This document shows positions 720-22,469 of a stretch of DNA of 33,343 nucleotides, piece by piece (position 1 is the stretch's first letter; each line of letters opens with the position of its first letter). The position numbers were made by a program, and so were the translations under genes. Location: IMG/VR virus record IMGVR_UViG_3300032242_002077, positions 1 to 33,343 of that record; one strand, written 5' to 3'. The notes under the pieces were generated by a model that saw only the letters and a list, made by a program, of their open reading frames with translations, made no database searches and was not told the DNA's origin. This DNA comes from a virus.

Positions 720-735
720 TTTGTTAAACAAAAAT

Positions 736-780
736 GCCCTTAGTAATTAAAAAGGACTGAGAGTCTTTATTACTAAGGGC
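736..780. terminator. Bidirectional intrinsic terminator
   Basis: A perfect 12-bp inverted repeat (GCCCTTAGTAAT at 736-747, ATTACTAAGGGC at 769-780) encloses a further AAGGACT/AGTCTTT pairing. On the plus strand it is followed by GTTTTTTATTTTTATT; on the minus strand the T-rich run complementary to 727-735 follows. It lies exactly between the convergent plus-strand genes and the reductase, so it should stop transcription from both sides. Confidence 0.9.
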
Positions 781-794
781 GTTTTTTATTTTTA

Positions 795-2979: not shown

Positions 2980-4437
2980 CTATTTACCTTCTGTAAGGTC
3001 TGTAATGATTTTGGTGGTTTCATTTTCTGTTAAACCTCCGTTAGGAAGCTCTTTAAGTGCCTGAGCTCGATCACCAAAAATGTTAGAAAGCACTCCCATT
3101 GAAGCGCCTTTACCTTCTACTGTCATCTTAATAAACGATGTAGAATCGTCCAACTCTTTAACAGTTTTAATTAATTTAAATAACCTGTCAATTTCTTGAG
3201 AAACATTTGGATCAGCATATCCACCGTTCATTTCCTCAGTAAAACGCATAAAAGCAACGCGTTGTCCTTGCATTTCAACAATCGCATTAATTAAACTCTT
3301 AAGTTGATCTTTAGTCTTTACCTCAACTGGAAGGTTAAATGCACACATACTTTGAGGTTTAAAAGCGGGACAATTAGCAGCAACAAAACAAGTATCGCAC
3401 TGTCTCAATGATGTTGCTTGTGACTTAATAATAGGTATATCTTTAATGGTTCCATCATCTTCAACTACGGTATCTATGGTGTACCCAAATACGGGTAAAT
3501 TGATCATTTCAGACGGATTTCTGGGCTCAACTTTCCGCATGTTTACCCCACTGTTATCGTTACGGGGAATAGCTGTTTCCCCACTTTCCCCCACATCTCT
3601 CCCCTCACTGTTATCGGATAACTCTAAACCACCCATATTAAGTCTCATTTCAAATTGTTCGTAAGACCACACTGCTAAACGACATACTTCTTGTGGGTCA
3701 TCTTCCATAATTAAGTCATAATCGAGCCCAGCTTTTTCATAAATGTGCCTGTAACGAGTACGGGCTTGTTCTTTCATTTTCTTGTTATATCGAACTAGAC
3801 GCTGACCATCCCAAACAATTGTCTCACCATGAAGCATCGGTGCAAGCCAAGAAAGGGTGCTGGCAGACTCTACCTTGACCTGTCGTAGGTTGTCTGGCTT
3901 AGCTGTGTTAATGGCGTGAAAGCGGGTACCGCGGGCGCTCATACCCTTTGTGAGGGCTGCTAACTGGGTTTCGTGCTCAATATCGTCCCCAAGTAGTCCT
4001 ATATCCAAATAGGTCTCAGACATCTTCTTAAGGCTATTTAAGCCCATTTGTGACTGCCATACGGGTTGGAACTTAGAAGGCGGAACTTCAGACCAACAGC
4101 TTTTACGCTGTTGTTCAATAAAGTCTGGTGTTAGCTTGGCATGAACCACTTCGTTAAACCATGTAACACGGTCTATATTATTGGCAATAAACTCTTCATA
4201 CAAAGCGCAAAACTCTTCTAATTCCGTTTCTTTCATATTTTCTGTTTTGGGTAGTCCAGCGTGAGCATAAATATAGACATCATCTGAAAAACGGTCAGAA
4301 AGTAAATAGGGCATGGTTTTTGGCAAACCACGGCGCATAAGACGATAGAAACTAACCCCAACGTGATTGGCAGTAGTAGTCTCTAATAAAGTTCTGTTAG
4401 ACCCTACTTCAGCACCTAAATAAATAATATGTGTCAT
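2980..4437 (-). CDS. Conserved phage protein, possible TGT/DpdA-like TIM barrel plus Cys-rich C-terminal region
   Basis: 485 aa, apparently two parts. Residues 1-270 show alternating strands and helices as in a TIM barrel: YLLSDRF, VYIYAHAG, IDRVTWFN, DIGLLGDD, then TRFHAINTAKPDNLRQV followed by VESASTLSW and HGETIVWDG. The last block resembles the late barrel strands of tRNA-guanine-transglycosylase/DpdA-type proteins, which exchange guanine for a deazaguanine. This is fold-level inference only. After a polar linker (about 280-310), residues 345-375 carry CDTCF, NCPAF and MCAF, a likely metal site, followed by a helical tail. Its start overlaps the stop of the HAD-like gene (ATGA). No deazaguanine biosynthesis genes are in this window. 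Confidence 0.75.
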   Translation of the reverse strand: MTHIIYLGAEVGSNRTLLETTTANHVGVSFYRLMRRGLPKTMPYLLSDRFSDDVYIYAHAGLPKTENMKETELEEFCALYEEFIANNIDRVTWFNEVVHAKLTPDFIEQQRKSCWSEVPPSKFQPVWQSQMGLNSLKKMSETYLDIGLLGDDIEHETQLAALTKGMSARGTRFHAINTAKPDNLRQVKVESASTLSWLAPMLHGETIVWDGQRLVRYNKKMKEQARTRYRHIYEKAGLDYDLIMEDDPQEVCRLAVWSYEQFEMRLNMGGLELSDNSEGRDVGESGETAIPRNDNSGVNMRKVEPRNPSEMINLPVFGYTIDTVVEDDGTIKDIPIIKSQATSLRQCDTCFVAANCPAFKPQSMCAFNLPVEVKTKDQLKSLINAIVEMQGQRVAFMRFTEEMNGGYADPNVSQEIDRLFKLIKTVKELDDSTSFIKMTVEGKGASMGVLSNIFGDRAQALKELPNGGLTENETTKIITDLTEGK

Positions 4438-20789: not shown

Positions 20790-20801
20790 TATTAAATAAT
20801 A

Positions 20802-20887
20802 CCGTAAAATTGGCTTAAATTACTGTCGGATGTGTATTTAGGTACTTATATTCTCTAAATACCCAGATATTTAAGCCAATTATACGG
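20802..20887. repeat. Nested inverted repeat between helicase and RHH gene
   Basis: Outer arms CCGTAAAATTGGCTTAAAT (20802-20820) and ATTTAAGCCAATTATACGG (20869-20887) are complementary at 18 of 19 positions. Inner arms GTATTTAG (20834-20841) and CTAAATAC (20855-20862) are perfect. The right outer arm includes the SNF2 helicase stop codon. No T-run follows on either strand. Candidates: operator for the RHH protein, origin element or processed RNA hairpin. Confidence 0.75.
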
Positions 20888-22469
20888 AAGCTAGGATTAA
20901 AAACTCTTTGAGGGAACCAACACTTAAAGGAACGCCCCCTTTTTCATCAATTCCTTCTCCATCAATAATTGCGTTGGCTACTGAGGATTTTTGTTGAAGG
21001 GAGTCGTATTGTCGTTCTTCAATACTTCCTCCCATAAGGAGGTCTTGTATGATGGCGGTGTTAAATCTAGATGAAGCTCTAATGATGCGCCCGTTTCTTT
21101 GCGTTGCCGCTCCTGAAGACCACGGAAGGTCATAGTTAATAAGGAGATTACCTGCGGGTAAATCCACCCCATAGCCACCAGCGTCAGAACTAATGAGAAC
21201 ACGCACAGCAGGGTTAGTGTTAAATTCAATTTTGTTATCTTCTTTCGTTTTAGCGTTTAATTTACCTGAATAAAGTCTGCACTGATCCGAACCAAGTGCT
21301 TGAGCAATTTTATCAAGCATGTCTACGTAAGTAGCAAAAACTACAACTTTATTAACTTCGTCTTGTTCTAAAAAATCGTTAACATACTCTATAAGGTAAT
21401 TAAGTTTATTAGACGTGTTAATTCCTTCTAATAATCCAGATTGAACTAATTGAAAAGCATATTGAGAACCTTCAATGCCTTCAGAAATATATTTATCTGC
21501 ACTGGTACGCAACAAATCGGGATGTGAGCACAACATCTTAAGCGCACCTACTTTAGACATTATTTTTCCACGCCACTCATCTTCTGGCCCACCTCGTTTA
21601 GACTCAATTCCATAATGTGCCAAAATATTAAAAGAACCACCAAAAAGGTCTTGGGCTGTTTCTAAATCTAAAAGCAAATCTTTTTTAATTTTTTCGTAAA
21701 GTTTAGAAGATTTTCTATCAAAAATTACTTTGATAGGGTCTTTGTGGATTGCATCTGGAAGAAATGGCGCAACATCAGGGTCTTTTTGAGCTTTACGTAC
21801 AGAAGCTTGTTTCATTTTTTGATGCAGTATCTCAAGATTGCGGTAACTTGTGACTGCTCCCCAGTTGTTACGCATAATAAACGCTTTATCAAATAAATCA
21901 AACCGCCCAAGAACATTAGAATCTACAAACTGCATAATGCTAAAAAGTTCTTCAGGTTTGCCATTTTCAATAGGGGTTCCAGTAAGAGCAAATTTATATG
22001 GTGCGTTAGAAAGACGTTTGGTATATCTAGACCTTTTAGAACGAAATGACTTAATAGCCGTAGCTTCGTCTAATACTACAAATCCTCTTGGAAGGTTTTT
22101 GACGAATTCCCAGTCATTAACAACTTGCTCATAGTTAAGAATGATGTAGTCAATTTTGGAGTTTTTCCAGTCGTTGGCAATTGCGTATTGCTCTTCTCTT
22201 TTAGCCTTGGTTCCATCAATGACCAGAGCACGTGAAGTACCATCTGTAAATTTCTCAATCTGATTAGCCCACTGGTATTTAAGTGAGGATAAACAAATTA
22301 CCAAACCTGGCTCGCTTATGGAACGTGAATCCATAAGTCGTTCTATTGCAGCAATAGTCAGCACGGTTTTTCCTAAACCAAGATCGTAAGCAACCAACAT
22401 TTTTTTTCGATCACACATACGATCAACTGCTTCTGGTTGATAAGGAAGAAGGGTTCCTTTAAAAGACAT
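20880..22469 (-). CDS. SNF2-family (DEAD-like) helicase/translocase
   Basis: 529 aa. Two RecA-like lobes. Motif I is DLGLGKT (K34), II is LDEATAIK (134-140), III is LTGTPIEN (162-169), V is ISSDAGGYGVDLPAGN, VI is QRNGRIIRASS, in the SNF2 order. Such ATPases remodel protein-DNA complexes or drive branch migration at forks and are common next to phage primase/helicase genes. It overlaps the dNMP kinase by 11 bases. The frame runs to the final IDEKGGVPLSVGSLKEFLILA without breaks. Confidence 0.93.
   Translation of the reverse strand: MSFKGTLLPYQPEAVDRMCDRKKMLVAYDLGLGKTVLTIAAIERLMDSRSISEPGLVICLSSLKYQWANQIEKFTDGTSRALVIDGTKAKREEQYAIANDWKNSKIDYIILNYEQVVNDWEFVKNLPRGFVVLDEATAIKSFRSKRSRYTKRLSNAPYKFALTGTPIENGKPEELFSIMQFVDSNVLGRFDLFDKAFIMRNNWGAVTSYRNLEILHQKMKQASVRKAQKDPDVAPFLPDAIHKDPIKVIFDRKSSKLYEKIKKDLLLDLETAQDLFGGSFNILAHYGIESKRGGPEDEWRGKIMSKVGALKMLCSHPDLLRTSADKYISEGIEGSQYAFQLVQSGLLEGINTSNKLNYLIEYVNDFLEQDEVNKVVVFATYVDMLDKIAQALGSDQCRLYSGKLNAKTKEDNKIEFNTNPAVRVLISSDAGGYGVDLPAGNLLINYDLPWSSGAATQRNGRIIRASSRFNTAIIQDLLMGGSIEERQYDSLQQKSSVANAIIDGEGIDEKGGVPLSVGSLKEFLILASV

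Follow-up and report, generated by a model that had tools for sequence, protein, structure and literature searches.

The stretch between an SNF2-family helicase gene and a small ribbon-helix-helix (RHH) gene of an uncultured virus carries a nested inverted repeat, and its comparison across related viruses supports the view that this is a secondary structure under selection, with a core that is itself selected. We give roughly even chances to the reading that the repeat forms a conserved structured RNA within the transcript through the helicase gene, that a protein recognises its core, and that its long stem determines the 3' end of the message, or how stable this message is. The element spans 86 bases (20802-20887) of the window, i.e., the whole stretch of DNA that was analysed (33,343 nucleotides, IMG/VR record IMGVR_UViG_3300032242_002077), and both neighbouring genes are encoded on the minus strand (Table 1). 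They belong to a block of replication genes that also includes a DnaB-like helicase, a Toprim primase-like protein, a DNA polymerase A, and a RecA-like protein. The assignment of the RHH protein comes from PHROG, its matches to the Pfam families RHH_5 and RHH_1 being below the cut-offs (E 0.012-0.018). Elsewhere in the window, a gene on the minus strand (2980-4437) matches PHROG 887, queuine tRNA-ribosyltransferase (E 7.8e-48). Such genes of phages can be part of DNA-base modification.

Table 1. Parts of the element and neighbouring features. Positions are those of the window unless a locus is named.
Feature	Position	Strand	Evidence
P1 stem, 5' arm (CCGTATAATTGGCTTAAATATCTG), with the helicase stop TAA	20864-20887	-	inverted repeat, P1 covariation
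P1 stem, 3' arm (CAGTAATTTAAGCCAATTTTACGG)	20802-20825	-	inverted repeat, P1 covariation
Inner stem P2, 5' strand (GTATTTAG)	20855-20862	-	inverted repeat, covariation
Inner stem P2, 3' strand (CTAAATAC)	20834-20841	-	inverted repeat, covariation
Apical loop, conserved GAA (20851-20853) and AAGTA (20843-20847)	20842-20854	-	invariant columns
Asymmetric internal loop, 3' side (ACATCCGA), ATCCG in 7/7 copies	20826-20833	-	alignment
SNF2-family helicase gene, 529 aa, stop codon within the element	20880-22469	-	Pfam SNF2-rel_dom E 1.4e-32, Helicase_C E 5.6e-21
-10 box TATTAT of the predicted leaderless-type RHH promoter, just outside the hairpin	20796-20801	-	TANNNT count
Arc/CopG-like ribbon-helix-helix gene, 49 aa	20640-20789	-	PHROG 6506 Arc-like repressor E 7.8e-12
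tRNA-Asn, tRNA-Gly, tRNA-Gln between helicase stop and RHH gene in relatives	L042 6591-6816; L065 6591-6816; L076 6597-6823; L057 3704-3930		

The geometry of the repeat agrees with the original prediction, made from the window's letters. Once recomputed, the outer arms (20802-20820 and 20869-20887) pair at 18 of 19 positions and the inner repeat at 8 of 8. If two extra mismatches are allowed, the outer arms reach inward to 20825 and 20864, with 21 of 24 positions paired. With a score of 16, it is the top-scoring inverted repeat of the whole window, while the best repeats of 100 whole-window dinucleotide shuffles have a maximum score of 15, which bears out the claim that arms of this kind are improbable by chance. 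The helicase stop TAA (20882-20880, minus strand) sits within the 5' arm, an overlap that had also been noticed, and the gap between the element and the RHH start ATG (20789-20787) is of 12 bases (20790-20801), not the 13 given initially. The stem is A+T-rich and is followed on the coding strand by TATTATTTAATA, without a T-run, in line with the earlier observation. It therefore lacks the G+C-rich stem and the T-run of intrinsic terminators, and no terminator site was called at the element. The second-best inverted repeat of the window (730-786) has a T-rich flank and is probably an ordinary terminator.

Close relatives of the helicase were collected at 80 IMG/VR loci, to which further scans with the helicases of L010 and L118 added more. 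We identified seven distinct copies of the element, each of them lying directly 3' of the stop codon of an SNF2 helicase gene, with a small RHH gene on its other side. They are found in L001 (identical to the window), L003-L005 (one sequence), L006, L008, L009, L010, and L118/L119 (one sequence). Of 88 distinct post-helicase regions, a long inverted repeat is present in these 7, with scores of 13-17, and no other region scores above 9. A covariance model built from six of the copies recovered the seventh, that of L118, with 57 bits and an E value of 4e-13.

The original prediction had named the same arms in relatives, with compensating base changes, as the way to check the element, and such changes are indeed present. 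Across the seven copies, 13 of the 31 base pairs have changed on both sides with pairing kept, a number that none of 500 shuffles reached (4.3 +/- 1.6), in an alignment that was fitted to the model and is hence biased towards the structure. A plain MAFFT alignment of six copies gives double changes at 7 of the 31 pairs. In the alignment of all copies, 93% of the cells are paired, and at most 48% when the partner is slid. The clearest case is L003, where P1 has the letters CAAGC/GCTTG instead of CTGGC/GCCAG and still pairs. As the seven copies come from one virus group, these covariation events, like the wobble counts given below, are not independent of each other.

The unpaired letters follow the opposite rule. 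Core and loop columns, aligned by hand, are invariant at 20 of 28 positions, relative to 19 of 124 four-fold sites in the helicase genes that accompany these copies (p 1e-8). This conservation is not merely the result of recent descent, since the four-fold sites of the copy-bearing helicases are only 0.39-0.65 identical to those of the window. The copies thus combine two features of structured RNAs, base changes that compensate each other and so preserve a defined secondary structure, and unpaired letters conserved beyond the neutral expectation. On the coding strand, the consensus core reads CUG, a short spacer, P2, GAA...AAGUA, P2', ...AUCCG(A/U), and CAG. More precisely, P1 consists of 16-22 pairs, free in their letters and kept in their pairing, and is closed by CUG/CAG; the internal loop of 8-9 nt lies almost wholly on the 3' side and contains the invariant AUCCG; P2 has 6-9 pairs and is capped by the apical loop GAA...AAGUA. 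In its letters, the GAA facing AGUA of the apical loop resembles the bulged-G (sarcin-ricin) module, and a similar three-dimensional motif may be supposed from this resemblance. A search by eye for loop-to-loop (pseudoknot) pairing kept in all copies found none.

The first suggestion, that an RNA hairpin would form on both strands, holds for the folding energy: both strands, folded as had been proposed, beat their shuffles (z -5.6 for the minus strand and -4.5 for the plus strand). The comparison of the copies favours the minus strand, i.e., the coding one. There, G-U wobbles outnumber A-C mismatches by 12 (4 + 8) to 3 (2 + 1), although five of the twelve G-U cells fall in a single column, which shrinks the independent evidence. 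In all seven copies, the coding strand folds with a better energy than the complementary strand, and the covariance model gives 57-104 bits on this strand and 20-44 on the other. Given the wobble counts, the energies, and the model scores, an RNA read with the helicase gene is the likeliest form of the element, with the proviso that the copies share ancestry and that these measures are support rather than proof. The same slot is occupied in other relatives by genes for tRNA-Asn, tRNA-Gly, and tRNA-Gln, which begin 0-3 bases past the same helicase stop and make transcription through the slot plausible.

These strand measures also bear on the proposal that the element is a single-stranded DNA hairpin for replication (an origin, a primosome site, or a strand-initiation site). 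While it lies in a block of replication genes and folds well as single-stranded DNA (z -5.9), the wobble bias and the energies favour RNA of the coding strand and some close relatives lack the element. There is no turn of the GC skew at the site, so the origin element put forward originally gains nothing from this side, even if skew alone cannot exclude an origin. Among the readings weighed here we regard this one as the most improbable.

The gene downstream seems to have its own start. In 74 distinct upstream regions, the ATG of the RHH gene follows a TANNNT box, with T at -12 in 72, A at -11 in 73, and T at -7 in 71; with a looser spacing (TANNNT 5-8 bases before the ATG), all 74 regions pass, and so do 12% of the shuffles. 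The box of the window ends 6 bases before the ATG, downstream of the hairpin. The RHH gene appears to start its own leaderless mRNA from this predicted promoter. If the start has been predicted correctly, the RHH message begins downstream of the element, and the element is part of the helicase read-through transcript. The arrangement is like that of leaderless promoters of Actinobacteria, with a -10 box a few fixed bases before the ATG, no clear -35 motif, and no leader; those of Mycobacterium tuberculosis have this TANNNT form and no -35 motif was found in them (PMC3898074). However, the likeness concerns the neighbouring RHH promoter and not the hairpin. In many relatives, the slot that follows the helicase stop has only 7-17 bases. 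Some tRNA-bearing relatives, such as L384 (5689-5707), have the palindrome CCCAACGATTATCGTTGGG immediately ahead of the -10 box of the RHH gene; it is absent from the window and is possibly an operator or a terminator.

RHH proteins often bind short DNA sites, repeated or inverted. The arms of the element, immediately upstream of the RHH -10 box, could in this respect be bound by RHH dimers and control the RHH promoter, which was one of the original suggestions. Such an operator is expected wherever the same RHH protein and promoter occur, and this is not what we observe. L006 and L007 have the TATTAT box in common and their RHH proteins are identical, yet the element is missing from L007, a finding that speaks against an obligatory operator. 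In most relatives, too, the RHH gene occurs without the element. The distance to the promoter is larger in L118, where the perfect stem of the element stops 17 nt short of the -10 box instead of abutting it, and element and box are therefore separable. Finally, the letters of the arms vary (L003 relative to the others) and their pairing is kept, the opposite of what is expected from a DNA site read by a protein. These observations leave the operator improbable. Of the three options raised at the outset, the conserved pairing favours the structured RNA.

As a structured RNA, the element could act in several ways. In the reading that we prefer, the transcript running through the SNF2 helicase gene would include it as a folded RNA, and the core would be recognised by an RNA-binding protein or a ribonuclease, of host or phage origin, as suggested by a stem that is kept by its shape and loops that are kept by their letters. 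The long stem would fix the 3' end of the helicase message, or else its stability, and part this message from the downstream RHH gene, which would begin its own leaderless mRNA beyond the element. The nearest rival is a processing site for RNase III, in which a stem with an asymmetric internal loop would be cut in the helicase-RHH transcript as in the early mRNA of T7; we consider it unlikely, if less so than the other alternatives. Among the T7 signals, R1.1 lies between genes 1.0 and 1.1; this structured RNA is 60 nt long and its internal loop is asymmetric, with 4/5 nt (PMC6121014). Like R1.1 and the other T7 signals, the element is an intercistronic hairpin of the coding strand in which two stems flank an asymmetric internal loop, and its P1 is kept through pairing alone. 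In contrast to them, its internal loop has a much stronger asymmetry (about 1 vs 8-9 nt, nearly all on the 3' side), we found only one such site in the window, and the apical loop GAA...AAGUA is invariant, which plain recognition by RNase III would not require.

Variable stems around invariant loops are also the pattern of aptamers and ribozymes. A riboswitch or self-cleaving RNA of a new class is nevertheless very improbable, given the very small core, the lack of a meaningful Rfam match, and the patchy distribution of a dispensable element; furthermore, since the RHH message seems to start downstream, there is no obvious gene to control. A broader version, a new class of small phage RNA in the slot of the relatives' tRNAs, with an active core that would bind a ligand, cleave itself, or act as a decoy for an RNA-binding or defence protein of the host, is somewhat easier to accept, yet still doubtful.

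The element is dispensable, as it is absent from the close relatives L002 and L007. In the latter, a hairpin that is shorter and lacks the conserved core (GTAAATGTTG...CGACAATTTAC) lies within 40 nt past the helicase stop (from 2986), in the place of the full element of its sister L006. On the helicase tree, the presence of the element needs four changes, and four are forced by the starred branches, a count that alone does not separate gain, loss, and transfer. The nearest relatives of L118 (L038, L045, and L052) lack the element. One reading of this history is that it was present in the clade of the window, lost in L002 and L007, and separately present in L118. The records that were searched, many of which are fragments, gave no second copy at another place, and hence no sign of a multi-copy mobile element.

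Core-pattern and covariance-model searches of IMG/VR identified no other copies outside this virus group (in one scan, among the matches listed). The core-pattern matches outside the clade are due to chance: the match in L088 is the T-arm of a tRNA, and those in L089 and L090 do not fold in this way. The 82 matches to a looser pattern are of two clearly separate kinds, the seven true copies and chance matches. A covariance-model match in record G051 is another long hairpin, without the core. Locus L381 of that record has three long perfect hairpins (101-177, 856-926, and 1583-1654) with common outer arms (GTTTGTGTTGG/CCAACACAAAC) and different interiors, two of them followed by apparent terminator hairpins, and these form an element distinct from the one studied here. 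A search of bacterial genome contigs for relatives of the helicase gave one remote match and no host or prophage, and there were no meaningful DNA matches to named phages. The nearest helicases of named phages, about 40% identical, are from Streptomyces phages such as BRock, where the next ORF starts 7 nt past the helicase gene.

No family of Rfam 15 reaches its gathering threshold in the window, and searches of the window, L118, and L009 at relaxed thresholds gave sub-threshold matches, none of them credible. A literature search, partial in coverage, found no description of the element. It is best read as a new, narrowly distributed family of a known kind, the conserved structured RNA elements. 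Like the candidate structured RNA motifs of bacteria and phages in comparative-genomics collections and in Rfam, it has covarying stems, conserved loops, and a fixed genomic place; unlike the catalogued ones, it matches no Rfam 15 family and, as far as searched, occurs in one virus group only.

With this analysis, a group of uncultured viruses gains an uncatalogued, well-supported structured RNA element, whose consensus of about 90 nt is short enough for direct synthesis and testing. In these viruses, the interval from the helicase stop to the leaderless-type RHH promoter serves as a slot, variously filled by tRNAs, by this element, or by simple hairpins, or left empty.
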